Assembly (NCBI RefSeq): GCF_003264115.1
Contig: NZ_CP021912.1
Span: 2,835,001 to 2,899,000, forward strand
Origin: Erythrobacter sp. KY5
Lineage (GTDB): Bacteria; Pseudomonadota; Alphaproteobacteria; Sphingomonadales; Sphingomonadaceae
Direction of reading: 5' to 3'
Length of the DNA: 64,000 nucleotides
Shown one piece after another: positions 31,642-37,208 of this stretch; the first letter of the stretch is position 1; each line of letters begins with the position of its first letter. The notes below the pieces were generated by a model. It had not been told where the DNA came from and ran no database searches. It saw nothing but the letters and a program-made list of their open reading frames with translations. The position numbers and the translations under genes were made by a program.

Positions 31642-32691
31642 TCAGTCAGCCTCTTCCATCAGCGCATGCTTCTTGATGCAATGGCGCAGCTGGTCATAGC
31701 TGAGGCCAAGCGCCTTGGCCGTCTGGCGCTGGTTCCAGCGATGCTTGCCCAGCGCATGTTCGACAATCGCACGCTCATGCGCATCGACTGCGGCGCGCAG
31801 ATCCTCGACCTCGTCGAAACACGGGGCCTGCGATGCGAAATCGCTCGCAGCTGGCGTGGCAGGTTGTGACCTGGGAGCGGACGAATCGGAGCGGCGATGG
31901 CTGGGCATTGCGGGCTTCCACGGGCTGTCGAACGGGTCGAACTGGACATGCGCGATCGGCCTGTCGGGATCGTCCCAGCGATAGACTGAACGTTCGACCA
32001 CATTGCGCAATTCGCGCACATTTCCGGGCCAGCCATATTCTTCCAGCTGGTTCATCACGTGCGGCGCAAATCCCGGCCAGCCATGCCAGTCGAGTTCGGC
32101 AGCCATTCGCCGCGCGAAATACTCGGCCAGAACGCCCACGTCGCCTTCCCGCACGCGCAGGGGCGGAAGCGTGATAACCTCGAAACTGAGCCTGTCGAGC
32201 AGGTCCGCACGAAACTCCCCGGTTTCGGCAAGATTGGGCAGGTCGTCATTGGTTGCAGCCACGATGCGCACATCGACACGGATCGGGCGCGAGGAACCGA
32301 TGCGAGTCACTTCGCCATATTCGACGGCCCTGAGCAGGCGTTCTTGCGCGCCCATCGACAAGGTGCCCAGTTCGTCGAGAAACAGAGTGCCCTTGTCGGC
32401 TTCCTCGAACCTTCCGGCGCGCGCTTTGGTAGCGCCGGTAAAGGCGCCCGCCTCGTGACCGAACAATTCGGCCTCGATCAGGCTTTCGGGAAGCGCGGCG
32501 CAATTCATGGTGACGAGCGGTTCGTCCCAACGGGTCGACAGGCGGTGGAGACGTTCGGCGATCAGTTCCTTGCCGGTTCCGCGCTCTCCGATGACCAGAA
32601 CGGGGCGGCTCATGGGCGCAGCACGCGAGGCGCGCTCGACCGCGTCGAGGAAAGCGCCGGACTGGCCGATAAACTGGTTTTCGCGCTCCAT
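31642..32691 (-). CDS. pspF: PspF-type sigma-54 activator of the psp operon
   Basis: A 349-residue bacterial enhancer-binding protein with no N-terminal sensory domain, as in PspF. The AAA+ domain starts almost at once (FLDAVERASRAAPMSRPVLV), with Walker A GERGTGKE, the sigma-54-contacting loop GAFTGATKA, and Walker B GTLFLDELGTL. The C-terminal Fis-type helix-turn-helix is NQRQTAKALGLSYDQLRHCI. It is divergent from the psp genes, with a perfect sigma-54 promoter facing the other way, and is about 20 residues longer than E. coli PspF. ATG at 32691 fits best. In E. coli PspF is held inactive by PspA. Confidence 0.95.
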   Translation of the reverse strand: MERENQFIGQSGAFLDAVERASRAAPMSRPVLVIGERGTGKELIAERLHRLSTRWDEPLVTMNCAALPESLIEAELFGHEAGAFTGATKARAGRFEEADKGTLFLDELGTLSMGAQERLLRAVEYGEVTRIGSSRPIRVDVRIVAATNDDLPNLAETGEFRADLLDRLSFEVITLPPLRVREGDVGVLAEYFARRMAAELDWHGWPGFAPHVMNQLEEYGWPGNVRELRNVVERSVYRWDDPDRPIAHVQFDPFDSPWKPAMPSHRRSDSSAPRSQPATPAASDFASQAPCFDEVEDLRAAVDAHERAIVEHALGKHRWNQRQTAKALGLSYDQLRHCIKKHALMEEAD

Positions 32692-32802: not shown

Positions 32803-32819
32803 TTGGCACGCTGGTTGCA
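32803..32819 (+). promoter_or_regulatory. Sigma-54 promoter of the psp operon
   Basis: TTGGCACGCTGGTTGCA matches the -24/-12 consensus TGGCACG-N4-TTGCW at every conserved position. It lies 112 bases from the pspF start and 41 bases ahead of the first psp-operon gene. The stretch at 32700-32790 is the expected place for PspF upstream activating sites, though I could not define them. Confidence 0.93.
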
Positions 32820-32859: not shown

Positions 32860-33027
32860 ATGTACAACGCCTCTTTCTTCCGCAGCAAGCTTGGCCACGC
32901 CTCGCTCGCCAGCGTTGCCGCCATGGCTCTGATGATTGCCTTCACCGGCCAGATGACCCTCGGCGTGGAAGATGCGCATATCGCTCAGCCGAGCGGTGAA
33001 ACGACCATGCTGGTTGAGCTTGCTTGA
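32860..33027 (+). CDS. 55-residue membrane or exported peptide, first gene of the psp operon
   Basis: This reading frame begins 41 bases after the sigma-54 promoter with TTGGAG well placed before the ATG. The 55 residues have a basic start (FFRSKLGH), one hydrophobic stretch (about residues 14-34, ASLASVAAMALMIAFTGQM) and a polar end (EDAHIAQPSGETTM). It may be a single-pass membrane peptide or carry an uncut signal anchor. I do not recognise a family. Its TGA overlaps a TTG that opens the frame running into pspA, so translation may be coupled. Placement makes it part of the envelope stress response. Confidence 0.75.
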   Translation: MYNASFFRSKLGHASLASVAAMALMIAFTGQMTLGVEDAHIAQPSGETTMLVELA

Positions 33028-33305
33028 GCATTATCGTGAGCAAGCGAGACGATATTCCAGGCGGTGATCCCTTCGGGCCGGAGCGCAAGTCTCCAGTCGC
33101 GAATGCCGATTTTAGCGACGCGCTGTCCCCGATGCGCGCTCGCTCCAACGGCAGCGCTTCGGCCCACCCCTCAAAACTCTCGCGCCTCGATGCGGAAATC
33201 GAGGCCTTGCGTCGCAGCCCCACCCCGACGCAAACTCATGGCAGAAGCGATCGTGACGACGACTCGCGCCAGAGCACTAACCCGTTCCTAGATGGAGTAG
33301 CCTTC
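33024..33305 (+). other. In-frame open region ahead of pspA, possible N-terminal extension
   Basis: The frame is open from TTG at 33024 (or GTG at 33036) straight into pspA with no stop. Codon choice stays GC-rich at third positions, as in coding DNA. About 94 residues could be added; the predicted peptide is polar and contains LSRLDAEIEALRRSP, very like the EIEALRD ends of the PspB-like proteins downstream. It could be a longer PspA form, a relic gene fused upstream, or simply untranslated leader. No strong ribosome binding site precedes the early starts. Confidence 0.45.
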
Positions 33306-33986
33306 ATGGGCATTTTCAGCCGCACTCGTGACATCATTGCCGCGAACTTCAACGACATGCTCGATAAAGCGGACGACCCGCAGAAGATGATCCGCATGAT
33401 CATCCTCGAGATGGAAGAAACGCTCGTCGAAGTCCGGGCAAGCGCGGCGCGAACGATTGCTGACCAGAAGGAAATGCACCGTCACGTCGTCAAGCTCGAC
33501 AAGCTCCAGGCCGACTGGGGCGAGAAGGCGCAACTGGCGCTGTCGAAGGACCGCGAGGACCTCGCCCGCGCTGCTCTGGTCGAGAAGAAGAAAGCGACCG
33601 GCATGGCAGACCAGCTGCGCGCCGAGATCGCCGTGCTCGACGATGCGCTGCGCGCTTACGAGGACGACATTCAGAAGCTGCAGCATCGCCTGCGCGAAGC
33701 CCGCAGCCGCCAGACTGCCATCGCAGCGCGGCTCGAAAGCGCGGAGAACCGCGTCAAGCTGCGCACGCTGATGAGCACCGAACGCACGGACGAAGCGCTT
33801 GCCCGCTTCGACCAGCTCGAACGCCGCGTCGATTACGCCGAAGGGCGCGCCGACGCGATCCAGATCGGCCAGGACCAGCCGCCCTCGCTCTCTGACGAGA
33901 TCGCCGCACTCGAAGGCGCCGATGCCATCGACGACGAGCTTGCCCAGATGAAAAAGGCGCTCGGCAAGCCTGAAGCCGACGACTGA
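33306..33986 (+). CDS. pspA: Phage shock protein A
   Basis: A 226-residue coiled-coil protein of the PspA/Vipp1/ESCRT-III family that binds stressed inner membrane and restrains PspF. MGIFSRTRDIIAANFNDMLD is the membrane-binding amphipathic helix; KMIRMIILEMEETLVEVRAS and the long helices after it match the family. E. coli PspA has 222 residues, so this start (ATG with GGAG upstream) gives the normal length. The tail carries SLSDEIAALEGADAIDDELA. Confidence 0.96.
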   Translation: MGIFSRTRDIIAANFNDMLDKADDPQKMIRMIILEMEETLVEVRASAARTIADQKEMHRHVVKLDKLQADWGEKAQLALSKDREDLARAALVEKKKATGMADQLRAEIAVLDDALRAYEDDIQKLQHRLREARSRQTAIAARLESAENRVKLRTLMSTERTDEALARFDQLERRVDYAEGRADAIQIGQDQPPSLSDEIAALEGADAIDDELAQMKKALGKPEADD

Positions 33987-34019
33987 AACAAGAATAGACA
34001 AACGACAGGGAATTGAACC

Positions 34020-34322
34020 GTGGAACCCGAATTCATCATCATCCCGATGCTCTTCATCGGCCTGCCGTGGCTGATCCTCCACTACGTTACCAAGTGGAAG
34101 ACGGCAGCCACGATCACCTCTGACGATGAGGTGCTGCTCGAAGAGCTCTACAATCTCGCCAAGCGCCTTGATGAACGCATGGACACGGTCGAGCGCCTCG
34201 TTGCCGCCGATGACCCGTCGTTCAACCCGGTCAAACGCCTTCAGGCGGACCAGGAAACAGACAATCAACAGCTGCGCGAACTCGAACAGCTGATGGCCGA
34301 AAAGAAAGGAGCCAGCCAATGA
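34020..34322 (+). CDS. pspB: Phage shock protein B
   Basis: A 100-residue inner-membrane protein. The membrane segment is residues 5-24 (FIIIPMLFIGLPWLILHYVT), followed by a coiled coil with LAKRLDERMDTVERLVAADD, which parallels the E. coli PspB segment that contacts PspC and PspA. It is longer than the 74-residue E. coli protein. It starts with GTG and overlaps pspC (ATGA). Confidence 0.9.
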   Translation: MEPEFIIIPMLFIGLPWLILHYVTKWKTAATITSDDEVLLEELYNLAKRLDERMDTVERLVAADDPSFNPVKRLQADQETDNQQLRELEQLMAEKKGASQ

Positions 34323-34693
34323 ACAGCCCCCGCACCTCCCTTTACCGGGACAAGCACAATGCAAAGCTGATGGGCGTGTGCTCCGGCATTGCCGACTATA
34401 CCGGGATCGACGCCTTCTGGCTGCGCCTTGCAATGGTCGTCCTTACCGTGACGCTCGGCTGGCCGCTGATTGCCTACTTCATCGCCGGCGCGCTCCTCCA
34501 GAAGAAGCCGCCGCACCTGTACCGCGACAATCAGGAACAGCAGTACTGGCAGCGTGTCCGCCAGAGCCCGAAGCGCACCGCACGTGAAATCCGCGCCCGC
34601 TTCCGCGATGTCGACCGCAGGCTGGCCGATGTGGAAAGCTACTATGTCAGCAACAATCCGCGTCTGACGGCCGAGATCGAGCGCCTGCGCTGA
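34319..34693 (+). CDS. pspC: Phage shock protein C
   Basis: A 124-residue membrane protein. The PspC domain covers residues 7-66 (LYRDKHNAKLMGVCSGIADY, then LRLAMVVLTVTLGWPLIAYF). The tail (about 95-124) is a charged coiled coil, VDRRLADVESYYV...LTAEIERLR, which matches the segment shared by the six small genes that follow. PspC with PspB senses membrane stress and releases PspF from PspA. Confidence 0.95.
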   Translation: MNSPRTSLYRDKHNAKLMGVCSGIADYTGIDAFWLRLAMVVLTVTLGWPLIAYFIAGALLQKKPPHLYRDNQEQQYWQRVRQSPKRTAREIRARFRDVDRRLADVESYYVSNNPRLTAEIERLR

Positions 34694-34736
34694 TCCAGCG
34701 AACGCAAACTCAACATCAATCAGGGGCATTTAGATC

Positions 34737-35054
34737 ATGGATCCGGGTCAACTCGCACTTCTCATTCCGATCATCGGGGTCTCCATCCCCGTCATCGCGA
34801 TCTGGGCGGGGCACCAGCAGAAGATGGCGAAGATCAAGATGGACGCCACCGCCAATGCGACGGCAGAAAAGGCCGCTCAATACGCAGCGCAGGTCGCCAA
34901 GCTTGAAGACCGCGTACAGGTGCTGGAACGAATCGTCACCGACCGCGGCTACGATATCGCCACCCAGATCGAGGCACTGCGCGACACCCGCTCTGTCGAA
35001 GAAAGCGGTGCCGGTGTCCCCCTCAATATGGGCAAGAAGGAACTCCAGTCGTGA
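34737..35054 (+). CDS. PspB-like small membrane protein, copy 1
   Basis: A 105-residue protein. One membrane segment (residues 5-24, QLALLIPIIGVSIPVIAIWA) is followed by an Ala-rich helix and then the shared module at residues 55-82: LEDRVQVLERIVTDRG then TQIEALRD. It resembles PspB in size, topology and the position of the RVxxLE segment, but the EIEALRD end is unlike E. coli PspB. It starts 43 bases after pspC and overlaps copy 2 (GTGA). Function is unknown; a role in membrane-stress sensing is inferred from operon position. Confidence 0.85.
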   Translation: MDPGQLALLIPIIGVSIPVIAIWAGHQQKMAKIKMDATANATAEKAAQYAAQVAKLEDRVQVLERIVTDRGYDIATQIEALRDTRSVEESGAGVPLNMGKKELQS

Positions 35055-35386
35055 ACGAACTCATCACCACCGAACTGTTGACTGTCGTCGGGCTGGGCTT
35101 TGCCGCCAGCTGGGTTTTCACCACCTGGTTAAGGGTCAAGCACGGCTACCCGCTCGAAGGGGCATGGGGCCAGGCGCTAAAGCCGTCCAGCGACGGTGAA
35201 GCCAAACAGCGCGTCACCCTGCTCACCCAGGAAAACGCCGAGCTTCGCGCCGAACTCGGTTCGGTCAAGGATCGCCTCGCCAATGTCGAACGCATCGTCA
35301 CCGACAGCGGCTATCACCTGTCGAGCGAGATCGAACAATTGAAGGACCGCACTCTCGAACACCGCAAGGATGAAGGGAGCGCATAA
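35051..35386 (+). CDS. PspB-like small membrane protein, copy 2
   Basis: A 111-residue protein with a membrane segment at residues 9-27 (LLTVVGLGFAASWVFTTWL), a loop, and a long coiled coil from 51. The shared module is at 71-99: SVKDRLANVERIVTDSG then SSEIEQLKD. It has the longest coiled coil of the group upstream of the module (LLTQENAELRAEL, leucine-zipper-like). It starts with GTG inside the copy 1 stop and its TAA overlaps the copy 3 ATG (TAATG). Confidence 0.85.
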   Translation: MNELITTELLTVVGLGFAASWVFTTWLRVKHGYPLEGAWGQALKPSSDGEAKQRVTLLTQENAELRAELGSVKDRLANVERIVTDSGYHLSSEIEQLKDRTLEHRKDEGSA

Positions 35387-35685
35387 TGGATGCAGATCTC
35401 ATCCTGATATTCGGTTTCATCACCATCGTGGTGGCGATCACCGGCATCAGCATCAACGCGATTGTCGCCAAGGTCTATGCTCACAAGAAGTGGGCGCGCG
35501 AACACTCGCTGATCGGCTCGAAATCAAGCGCGTCCGTCAACCAGATCGCCGAACGCACCGACATGATCGAGGACCGCCTGCGCGTTCTCGAACGCCTCGC
35601 AACCGATCGCGGCACGCTTTTGTCGGATGAAATCGAAGCGCTGCGCGACGATATGAAATCGCGCCGCCAGTTGGAGAACGGCTGA
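35386..35685 (+). CDS. PspB-like small membrane protein, copy 3
   Basis: A 99-residue protein. The membrane segment spans residues 5-28 (LILIFGFITIVVAITGISIN), followed by a basic stretch (AHKKWARE) that should stay cytoplasmic. The module at 60-88 is IEDRLRVLERLATDRG then SDEIEALRD. Both junctions overlap by one base with neighbours (TAATG and TGATG), so its translation depends on the genes around it. Confidence 0.85.
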   Translation: MDADLILIFGFITIVVAITGISINAIVAKVYAHKKWAREHSLIGSKSSASVNQIAERTDMIEDRLRVLERLATDRGTLLSDEIEALRDDMKSRRQLENG

Positions 35686-35966
35686 TGTTCGGCCCTGACA
35701 CCGCCTTGATGTTCGATGCCATGCAGATGTCGGCCGTCGTAGCCGGTGTCACGGGCGCAGCGGTCTACTTCGCAATGCGCTGGCGCCGGACAAGCAAGAA
35801 CCGCAAGGTAATCGACAAATCGCAAGGCATGGACCTTGAAGAGCGTGTGCGCGTGCTCGAACGCATCGCGACCGACCGTTCAATCGACCTTGCCGAAGAG
35901 ATCGAGGCGCTGCGCGACCCTGTACCTTCCGCCAGCGCCAAACCACAGCTTGGAGGAAGCCAGTAA
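35685..35966 (+). CDS. PspB-like small membrane protein, copy 4
   Basis: A 93-residue protein. The membrane segment is residues 13-31 (MQMSAVVAGVTGAAVYFAMR), followed by a strongly basic patch (RWRRTSKNRK). The module at 50-78 is DLEERVRVLERIATDRS then AEEIEALRD, the copy closest to a consensus of the group. It ends in a short Pro/Ser/Gly tail. It overlaps copies 3 and 5 by one base each. Confidence 0.85.
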   Translation: MFGPDTALMFDAMQMSAVVAGVTGAAVYFAMRWRRTSKNRKVIDKSQGMDLEERVRVLERIATDRSIDLAEEIEALRDPVPSASAKPQLGGSQ

Positions 35967-36316
35967 TGAGTTCGTGGGCAATCGTCGCTGTCATCGCAAT
36001 CGTCGTCTGGGGGATCGTCCAGATGGCCAAGGCGCGCCACGGCATCACGACCGATGCCGAAGGCAACGAACACTGGACGCCGCGCGCCCATGACGAAGAC
36101 GACCGCCCAAGCCGCGCCGAGATCGAAGAGACAAGGCGCGAAATGGAACAATTGCGCGAACGGCTTCACGTGCTTGAACGCATCGCGACCGACAACAACA
36201 CGATGGATGCCCGCGAACGCGCGCGCATCGCCGCCGAAATCGAAGCTCTGAGAAGCCCTGGCGAGGGTTCGATAGCTTCAACACCACTCCCGTCCAAGGA
36301 GGAGCAGAGCCAATGA
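35966..36316 (+). CDS. PspB-like small membrane protein, copy 5
   Basis: A 116-residue protein, the longest copy. The membrane segment is at the very N-terminus (residues 4-20, WAIVAVIAIVVWGIVQMA). A His/Asp/Glu-rich linker (DEDDRPSR) leads to the module at 62-97: QLRERLHVLERIATDNN, an insertion of seven residues, then AAEIEALRS. It ends in a polar tail. It overlaps copy 6 (ATGA at 36313). Confidence 0.85.
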   Translation: MSSWAIVAVIAIVVWGIVQMAKARHGITTDAEGNEHWTPRAHDEDDRPSRAEIEETRREMEQLRERLHVLERIATDNNTMDARERARIAAEIEALRSPGEGSIASTPLPSKEEQSQ

Positions 36317-36567
36317 TGATGGACCCCGTACTCGTTATCGCCGCAACCTGCCTTGTTGGCATCACTGTGGTCGCCTTCGCGCTCCTGCGAGCGTGGCAGG
36401 GCTGGCTTCAGCTGAAACGCGAGGAAATCGAACGTGGCACGACCCGGCCCGATCCCGCAGCCGAAATCGAAGGCGGCGCCAGCGTAGGCGCAGCCCGGAT
36501 CGAGCTTGCCGACATGAAAGAGCGTATCAAGAAGCTGGAAGCGATTGCCAGCGGAGTGGAGCTTTAA
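36313..36567 (+). CDS. PspB-like small membrane protein, copy 6 (short module)
   Basis: An 84-residue protein. The membrane segment is residues 5-27 (PVLVIAATCLVGITVVAFAL). The coiled coil ends at residue 84 with DMKERIKKLEAIASGVEL, so the first half of the shared module is kept but the EIEALRD half is missing. It is the last gene of the psp operon; the palindromic repeat at 36603 begins 36 bases later. The truncated end makes its overall shape closest to short PspB proteins. Confidence 0.82.
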   Translation: MMMDPVLVIAATCLVGITVVAFALLRAWQGWLQLKREEIERGTTRPDPAAEIEGGASVGAARIELADMKERIKKLEAIASGVEL

Positions 36568-36602
36568 GGGCGCTTTCGTCCGAACGGCGGAGCCAATCTT
36601 CT

Positions 36603-36721
36603 CGTCATTGCGAGCGCAGCGAAGCAATCCATGATCCGGCATTCGCGCCAATCGCCATTCGCGTGACTGTCACGAATAACAGTCCATGGATTGCTTCTTC
36701 GCTTTGCTCCTCGCAATGACG
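36603..36721. repeat. Palindromic repeat element (REP/MITE-like)
   Basis: A 119-bp element with inverted arms: CGTCATTGCGAG...GCGAAGCAATCCAT on the left and ATGGATTGCTTC...CTCGCAATGACG on the right. The centre holds a smaller palindrome (CGTGAC-T-GTCACG). The motif of CATTGCGAG and GAAGCAATCC is well known as a dispersed non-coding repeat in many alphaproteobacterial genomes. It lies between the psp operon and sufE and could end or stabilise the psp transcript. Confidence 0.85.
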
Positions 36722-36794
36722 AAATGAGCCGCGGTGTCCAAAGGACCGCGATGAAAAGGATTGGATTTTCGCCATAGACTACTAAGTCCACGCC

Positions 36795-37208
36795 ATGCGA
36801 AATCTTGATGATATCCGGGAAGAATACGAATTCCTCGAAGGCGATGAACGCTATCGCCTGCTGATCGAGCTGGGGCGTGAGCTTGAGGACATGCCCGATG
36901 CGCTCAAAACCGATGCGACGCTGGTGCGCGGATGTTCGGCGGCGGTGTGGGTCTATCCGACAGAGACCGCTGGCGATGGCGCGCTCCATTTCCTTGCCGA
37001 CAGCAACGCTGCGATCACCAAGGGCATCGTCGCTCTGGTGATTGCTGCGGTTCAGGACAAGCCTGCGCGCGAAGTTGCCGAAATGGACGTGACCGGGGCG
37101 CTCGAACCGTTTGACCTCAAAAACCAGCTATCGTCCAACCGCACACAGGGCGTCCCCAACATGATCGCGCTGGTCAAGCAGCATGCGGCGCGGCTGGCGT
37201 TGACTTGA
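36795..37208 (+). CDS. sufE: SufE family sulfur-transfer protein
   Basis: A 137-residue SufE-like protein that accepts sulfur from a cysteine desulfurase for Fe-S cluster building. The core LVRGCSAAVWVYP holds the active Cys, preceded by YRLLIELGRELEDMPDAL, and the C-terminus NRTQGVPNMIALVKQHA is typical. The length is normal. No suf genes are adjacent, so it stands alone. Confidence 0.94.
   Translation: MRNLDDIREEYEFLEGDERYRLLIELGRELEDMPDALKTDATLVRGCSAAVWVYPTETAGDGALHFLADSNAAITKGIVALVIAAVQDKPAREVAEMDVTGALEPFDLKNQLSSNRTQGVPNMIALVKQHAARLALT

Follow-up and report, generated by a model that had tools for sequence, protein, structure and literature searches.

What are six small genes doing behind pspC? 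In the window analysed here (64,000 nucleotides of Erythrobacter sp. KY5, NZ_CP021912.1, positions 2,835,001 to 2,899,000), the phage shock protein (Psp) genes pspA, pspB and pspC are followed by six consecutive genes at 34737-36567, named P1 to P6 and referred to together as the array. The first-pass annotation of this DNA proposed an expanded psp operon, whose additional products either dock PspA or PspF or are variants of PspB. PspA docking is the role that we favour: we see roughly even chances that P1-P5 are membrane-anchored, PspA-docking copies of the PspC tail, which would make the array a many-armed PspA receptor.

The proteins P1-P6 are 84-116 residues long, each with a single N-terminal hydrophobic segment followed by a coiled coil. 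P1-P5 end in an RVxVLERIVTD-like segment and then an EIEALRD-like one; P6 has only the first half. Consecutive genes overlap by 4, 1, 1, 1 and 4 bases, in this order. Each start is preceded by purine-rich, Shine-Dalgarno-like bases, and a simple scan of the + strand from 33980 to 36820 found no terminator-like site. The first-pass description of the genes, their overlaps and the protein ends was accurate. One N-terminal membrane helix and a coil, encoded beside pspA and pspC, is a PspB-like arrangement, judged by hydrophobicity and charge alone. In 252 of 269 array proteins from the family the C side is the more positive one (positive-inside), and these charges suggest a cytoplasmic C terminus.

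Scans of Pfam and NCBIfam revealed no established family with another role for P1-P6, so that the idea of an expansion stands; many of their weak Pfam matches are plainly spurious. All six miss the PspB cut-offs. P1 reaches 16.6 of 25.6 bits in Pfam (PF06667) and 23.0 of 51.7 in NCBIfam (TIGR02976), P3 has 12.2 bits in Pfam, and P2, P4, P5 and P6 match neither PspB profile. The Pfam scan found no PspC transmembrane domain (PF04024) in any of them: PspC carries this two-helix domain, whereas the array proteins have one membrane helix. Conversely, the tail positions of the PspC model TIGR02978 are matched by P1, P2, P3 and P5, far under its cut-off, and not by P4.

Alignment of array subtypes (defined below) with the single PspB and PspC sequences of the window by hhalign was uninformative, and deep alignments were needed. 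A profile of 189 array proteins, subtype H excluded, matches the PspC tail (RLxxVExxxTSxxxxLxxEIExLR) with a probability of 95 and an E-value of 2.6e-8. It also matches PspB, which shares with the array the single N-terminal membrane helix followed by a coil, over both anchor and coil (probability 91, E 8.9e-7). Reversed-sequence controls for the two pairs gave 0.006 or worse. Compared directly, PspB and the PspC tail show no significant likeness (E 0.025). Subtype H alone matches neither, and is joined to them through the other subtypes (E 6.7e-9).

A hidden Markov model (HMM) of the array, built from array proteins of the family loci described below and without PspB or PspC, recognizes 149 of 158 PspC, 140 of 158 PspB and 2 of 158 PspA at 10 bits or more, and 14 of 17,621 other open reading frames (ORFs). 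Nine of these 14, at 36 bits or more, probably belong to arrays whose locus has no anchored pspC. The PspB, PspC and other-ORF counts are independent of the training set; the array-gene counts are not, because the HMM was trained on the same loci. Altogether, the array proteins seem to combine an anchor of the PspB type with a tail of the PspC type. They are not simply PspB variants, the other role first proposed: the cut-offs are missed, and the C-terminal half is closer to the PspC tail than to PspB. The PspB of the window lacks the EIEALR motif.

The array is not peculiar to its source genome. Of 99 genomes drawn from the family Sphingomonadaceae, 92 contain a PspC match (TIGR02978), which exceeds the cut-off in 90; we parsed 60 of these 90 loci, mostly top-scoring and on longer contigs. 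By the array HMM, at least one array gene lies 3' of pspC in 59 of the 60 (mostly four or five, range 0-8), which bears out the proposed expansion, and 4- or 1-base overlaps occur at 90 of 205 array-internal junctions. After removal of a false sixth member of one locus (L008, gap 1952), these loci provided the 269 proteins analysed. A further 80 named loci, taken as the 80 best subtype H matches and nearly all from close relatives, come from Erythrobacter, Qipengyuania, Porphyrobacter, Altererythrobacter, Tsuneonella and others; an anchored pspC could be identified in 77 of them, and pspA could be read in 75. Subtype B matches at least 8000 proteins. Among the 120 matches listed, most are named 'hypothetical protein' and some JGI records 'predicted metal-binding membrane protein'.

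Outside the family the genes become rare. Of 39 genomes from other families of the order that have pspA, 20 were parsed; 17 of these loci have no array gene and three (L073, L079, L081) have one. In L079 and L081, both from another family, the single array-like gene lies 366 and 267 bases 3' of pspC, possibly the single-copy ancestor state. In L073, pspC is followed by another short PspB-like gene, with no EIEALR tail. Across the class, subtype A is matched in 7 of 289 genomes, four of them in the family; of the other three matches, two are partial and the third (genome G328) is separated from its pspC by about 80 kb. Only 4 of 16 non-family pspA loci of the class were parsed, at about 3.65 kb each, and are little informative. 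Within the family, six near-complete genomes without a PspC match have no pspA and no match to the subtype B or H models, the two used for this search. A seventh (G082, 66% complete) has array genes, with no pspA seen.

Subtype letters stand for regular expressions rather than curated families, and some proteins labelled 'o' belong to lettered clades. For 266 of the 269 proteins the closest relative is found in another genome. Subtypes B and H each form a single clade (support 1.0) to which every genome contributes one member, 42 genomes for B and 57 for H. H is the last array gene in 48 of 49 cases. Subtype B has a strongly conserved juxtamembrane segment, GYPL..WG. In the source genome, every subtype-A and subtype-B match falls in the psp locus. 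The array is a family-wide trait with a fixed order and old orthologous subtypes.

A short helix recurs among the psp proteins of the window. The pattern [LIV]xx[EQ][IV][EA]xL[RKE] occurs eight times in seven of them (P1-P5, the PspC end, and PspA, in both its helix alpha5 and its N-terminal extension); elsewhere it occurs in one place among the 104 mechanically called ORFs of at least 150 residues (31,012 residues). This recurrence is not due to chance. The variant L-x-x-[EQ]-[IF]-x-x-L is present in P1-P5 (with I in the first position of P1 and P5), PspC and the PspA extension, and absent from PspB and P6. Across the family, 208 of 269 array proteins have the coil followed by an [EQDR][IVFLM]xxL half.

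The occurrence in alpha5 points to a possible binding site. All 17 PDB matches of the window PspA at E ≤ 0.001 are Vipp1/PspA entries; PspB and PspC of the window have no relative by sequence in the PDB copy searched. Residues L195, I199 and L202 of this PspA align with L193, F197 and L200 of Nostoc Vipp1, whose spacing equals that of L/I/L in the motif. In Vipp1, the N-terminus of alpha5 packs on the hairpin tip of a next-rung subunit (Interface 3), the F197K/L200K mutant is severely inhibited in self-assembly, and L193C crosslinks to L86C of the hairpin (PMC8281802; for the packing, see also PMC11919738; these and all papers below are cited for the parts of their text covered here). There the element belongs to the polymer subunit itself, whereas in the array the motif sits on separate membrane proteins. 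Fixed hairpin-alpha5 contacts of Synechocystis PspA include F196, M212, W71, K74, R88 and L91 (PMC11746142). The window PspA carries W71, K74, R88, L91, I199 and M215, and we infer from equal spacing and from the end points of the 7abk match that I199 and M215 correspond to F196 and M212.

Profile comparison hints at the same region. Aligned with PspA, the PspC tail picks alpha4-alpha5 with a P-value of 0.0011 (157 and 156 sequences), or 0.00068 when gammaproteobacteria and others are added (163 and 162 sequences); reversed controls give 0.13-0.35. A tail HMM finds 11 of 158 PspA and 7 of 17,621 other ORFs at 6 bits or more, and the four inspected matches of the PspC-tail profile in PspA all lie within alpha4-alpha5. 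The link between PspC tail and alpha5 draws on this profile, the hhalign runs and the residue mapping; it is suggestive, not proof. We put forward only tentatively, as more doubtful than PspA docking itself, that the EIEALR helix is a portable copy of the N-terminus of PspA alpha5 (the Interface-3 element), with which PspC, P1-P5 and the N-terminal arm of a long PspA isoform would dock on the PspA hairpin tip.

That arm is the N-terminal extension of PspA: the pspA reading frame continues 90 codons 5' of the usual start. It contains a PLGPER-like box and a SRLDxEIEALRRSPTPTQ helix. An RL(D/E)xE(I/V)ExLR-like motif is found in 29 of 55 family, 74 of 75 named and none of 20 order-outgroup loci, often with SPTPTQ after it. 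The extension is probably disordered; AlphaFold2 predicts one helix in an otherwise low-confidence arm, residues 51-60, which is the motif. A separate gene was rejected, as the extension runs in frame into pspA with no stop. So was an untranslated region, since the peptide shows conservation and, in 9 of 9 comparisons with the window, differences are most frequent at third codon positions, by an excess that is modest next to that in the core. Mean array size is 4.97 with and 3.62 without the extension (p 0.006), a comparison that ignores kinship, includes the false L008 member and is not used as support.

The usual start of pspA seems to be retained inside the longer frame. In loci with the motif, 106 of the 108 glycine codons up to six residues ahead of this start are GGA, which nearly always produces GGAG, a conserved internal Shine-Dalgarno sequence; GGA makes up 80 of 654 elsewhere in the extension and 66 of 796 in the core. 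Judging from this codon bias, selection appears to maintain the internal start, and PspA is therefore likely to exist in a long and a short form in part of the family. The usual N terminus of PspA, helix alpha0, is a membrane anchor (PMC12358876); a long form would therefore be expected to bind the membrane differently.

We now propose how the array may work. In the on state, PspA of Yersinia is bound by the C-terminal cytoplasmic domain of PspC, which sets PspF free (PMC5596341). In E. coli, PspA binding requires the tail of PspC and its leucine zipper, and the PspC fragment 69-119 together with PspB binds PspA and induces psp in a leucine zipper-dependent manner (PMC3068692). P1-P6 would be produced with PspA, PspB and PspC from one operon controlled by sigma-54 and PspF, and P1-P5 would be held by a PspB-like anchor, with one inner-membrane helix and the C terminus in the cytoplasm. 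Membrane stress would free their tails, as it would that of PspC, for binding to PspA, which would thereby be drawn away from PspF to the membrane. We place the tails at the PspA hairpin, conditionally, because the tail end shares three hydrophobic positions with the start of alpha5. Bound there, the array might recruit and nucleate PspA polymers, or cap them, with a possible effect on polymer form. Each subtype would have its own membrane and juxtamembrane segment as input and the common tail as output; P6, of subtype H and without the last helix, could have a structural role as a partner or spacer. In Erythrobacter-like members of the family, the loose helix copy in the PspA extension would probably act as a competing or self-capping arm of the long isoform.

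Several observations weigh against this proposal. One family genome (G049, locus L027) has pspA and pspC, and no array was found in it. Of the 269 array proteins, 61 do not fit the second-half pattern, and 49 of these carry the label H; P6 has no motif. The likeness of PspC tail and PspA is weak (probability 20-27), with P-values of 0.0017, 0.0025, 0.015 and 0.04 in four subsets, of which the last two are weaker still; so is the likeness of array and PspA (0.022, 0.0075, 0.0054), and a profile comparison of PspB with PspA gives none. Both the PspC tail end and PspA alpha5 are amphipathic helices. The best inspected matches of the array HMM in PspA fall in the N-terminal extension, not in alpha5, and its matches to three PspA ORFs were dropped as evidence for alpha5. 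Covariation of the PspA and PspC anchor residues outside the family is unconvincing (order loci: I/L 10, F/L 4, I/F 2, F/F 2, L/I 1, F/I 1). AlphaFold2 draws P1 alone as one continuous helix, which adds nothing further. E. coli PspC binds PspA without any array. Finally, an older E. coli model placed the PspC tail in the periplasm, and PMC3068692 starts from this model and argues for more than one topology.

For another role the odds seem to us clearly lower than for docking: the array proteins might be additional subunits of the PspB-PspC sensor, forming hetero-oligomers through their membrane helices and coils and tuning its switch-on with no PspA binding of their own. The match of their transmembrane-plus-coil part to PspB, the strong conservation of subtype-specific juxtamembrane segments such as GYPL..WG and the missing tail motif of subtype H would all be expected of such subunits. 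However, the clearest common part of P1-P5 is the tail, the part that contacts PspA in PspC, and not the anchor. We consider it unlikely that the array is a silencer or buffer, whose tails raise the threshold of the response, either by competing with the PspC tail for the cytoplasmic portion of PspB or by keeping back a reserve of PspA. Array genes in one operon-like row with pspA would be in keeping with it, but competition alone leaves the fixed gene order and the several conserved subtypes unexplained.

Two further explanations strike us as very improbable. Tandem pspB duplicates with little separate function, kept by drift, would account for a copy number that varies from 0 to 8 across the 60 family loci, but hardly for closest relatives that nearly always lie in other genomes, for the single B and H clades with one member per genome, or for the terminal position of H. 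No better can be said of unrelated coiled-coil membrane proteins riding on the operon, whose likeness to PspB, PspC and PspA would be coiled-coil convergence. Weak matches do come easily with helical, low-complexity sequences, as the spurious Pfam matches illustrate. Yet the reversed sequences fail to reproduce the likeness, the array HMM is specific against 17,621 ORFs, subtypes B and H go unmatched in the six near-complete genomes without pspA, and the source genome has its subtype-A and subtype-B matches in the psp locus and nowhere else.

In the window, the psp row runs from a sigma-54 site through a 55-residue ORF and the extended pspA to pspB, pspC and P1-P6, with pspF divergent (Table 1). 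The hallmarks of a psp operon (divergent pspF, sigma-54 promoter, pspA-pspB-pspC) are thus present, pspF as judged by sequence only. The sigma-54 site is the single exact match to TGGCACN5TTGCW in the window. Under a looser pattern, a similar site lies within the 1 kb 5' of pspA at 43 of 55 loci in the family, at 66 of the 75 named loci and at 15 of 20 loci in the order outgroup.

Table 1. Features of the psp locus, in positions of the window.
Feature	Position	Strand	Basis or details
Putative pspF, sigma-54 activator, divergent	31642..32691	-	AAA+ and helix-turn-helix sequence by eye; ATG at 32691
Sigma-54 promoter-like -24/-12 site, TGGCACGCTGGTTGCA	32804..32819	+	Exact TGGCACN5TTGCW match
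55-residue ORF, signal-like hydrophobic N terminus, first after promoter	32860..33027	+	ORF call
PspA N-terminal extension, putative start GTG 33036 or TTG 33024	33036..33305	+	In frame with pspA
LDAEIEALR helix within PspA extension	33186..33212	+	Motif census, AlphaFold2
pspA core, MGIFSR start, internal Shine-Dalgarno	33306..33986	+	TIGR02977, 282.6 bits (cut-off 243)
PspA alpha5 N-terminal motif LSDEIAALE (core L195/I199/L202)	33888..33914	+	Alignment, motif census
pspB	34020..34322	+	TIGR02976, 88.8 bits (cut-off 51.7)
pspC, tail end NPRLTAEIERLR	34319..34693	+	TIGR02978, 123 bits (cut-off 104)
P1, 105 residues, subtype A (TAEKAAQY)	34737..35054	+	Motif 34956-34982
P2, 111 residues, subtype B (GYPL..WG / ENAELRAE)	35051..35386	+	Motif 35318-35344
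P3, 99 residues, no subtype letter	35386..35685	+	Motif 35620-35646
P4, 93 residues, MFGPDT type, no subtype letter	35685..35966	+	Motif 35889-35915
P5, 116 residues, subtype Z (GI..D..GN)	35966..36316	+	Motif 36227-36253
P6, 84 residues, subtype H, terminal (RIExADxKERIRKLEAIAxGV), without EIEALR half	36313..36567	+	Sequence

Signal-peptide-like small ORFs are found at the position of the 55-residue ORF, between the sigma-54 site and pspA, in many relatives (uncounted); codon-position differences from relatives were compared for this ORF as well. In some relatives (loci L003, L007, L009, L053), subtype H is directly followed by a conserved protein of 58 residues (IGLGSAIAVAISWSLHKSILWAILHGFFGWFYVIYYALTRPGG type), which was not seen in the gene chain called in the window. 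Here, an imperfect inverted repeat resembling the REP type (36597-36727; outer arms of 18 nt, 89%; inner arms of 33 nt, 76%) separates the array from a gene that is SufE-like by sequence.

The array has a precedent of sorts. Ravi et al. (2024) report 'PspB duplicates' in psp operons, which like the array are extra PspB-like genes, and a divergent PspB at the C-terminal end of PspC (PMC11237479), so that the PspC end is already related to PspB. The duplicates take up one clause; the main-text parts covered, from which the supplement is separate, are silent on the number, order, subtypes and tail as well as on the PspA extension, and do not relate the PspC end to PspA alpha5. Their example AOL22920.1, of unchecked organism, may be a relative of the array. 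The main text of a 2022 survey, in the parts covered, mentions neither Alphaproteobacteria nor sphingomonads (PMC9239133), and comparative genomics of Qipengyuania and Novosphingobium mention phage shock proteins in passing (PMC9241875, PMC5443232). We found no description of the array or of the alpha5 likeness in open-licence PMC full text, which holds little of the subscription literature and no supplements. The first-pass idea of an undescribed system needs this qualification: extra PspB-like genes in psp operons have been mentioned before.

To our knowledge, how PspC grips PspA and frees PspF has not been resolved structurally. The array offers many natural, diverged copies of the PspC tail, and singles out the PspA hairpin tip as a concrete site, along with particular residues. 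If the proposal is true, one repair protein, PspA, could answer to many membrane-anchored partners, and a large family of environmental bacteria would use docking proteins in the membrane to steer the assembly of bacterial ESCRT-III. On the more tentative reading of a portable alpha5 helix, Psp sensing would be alpha5 mimicry in proteobacteria generally. In sphingomonads, the multi-armed receptor would then set where, and in which form (ring, rod or carpet), the ESCRT-III polymer grows.

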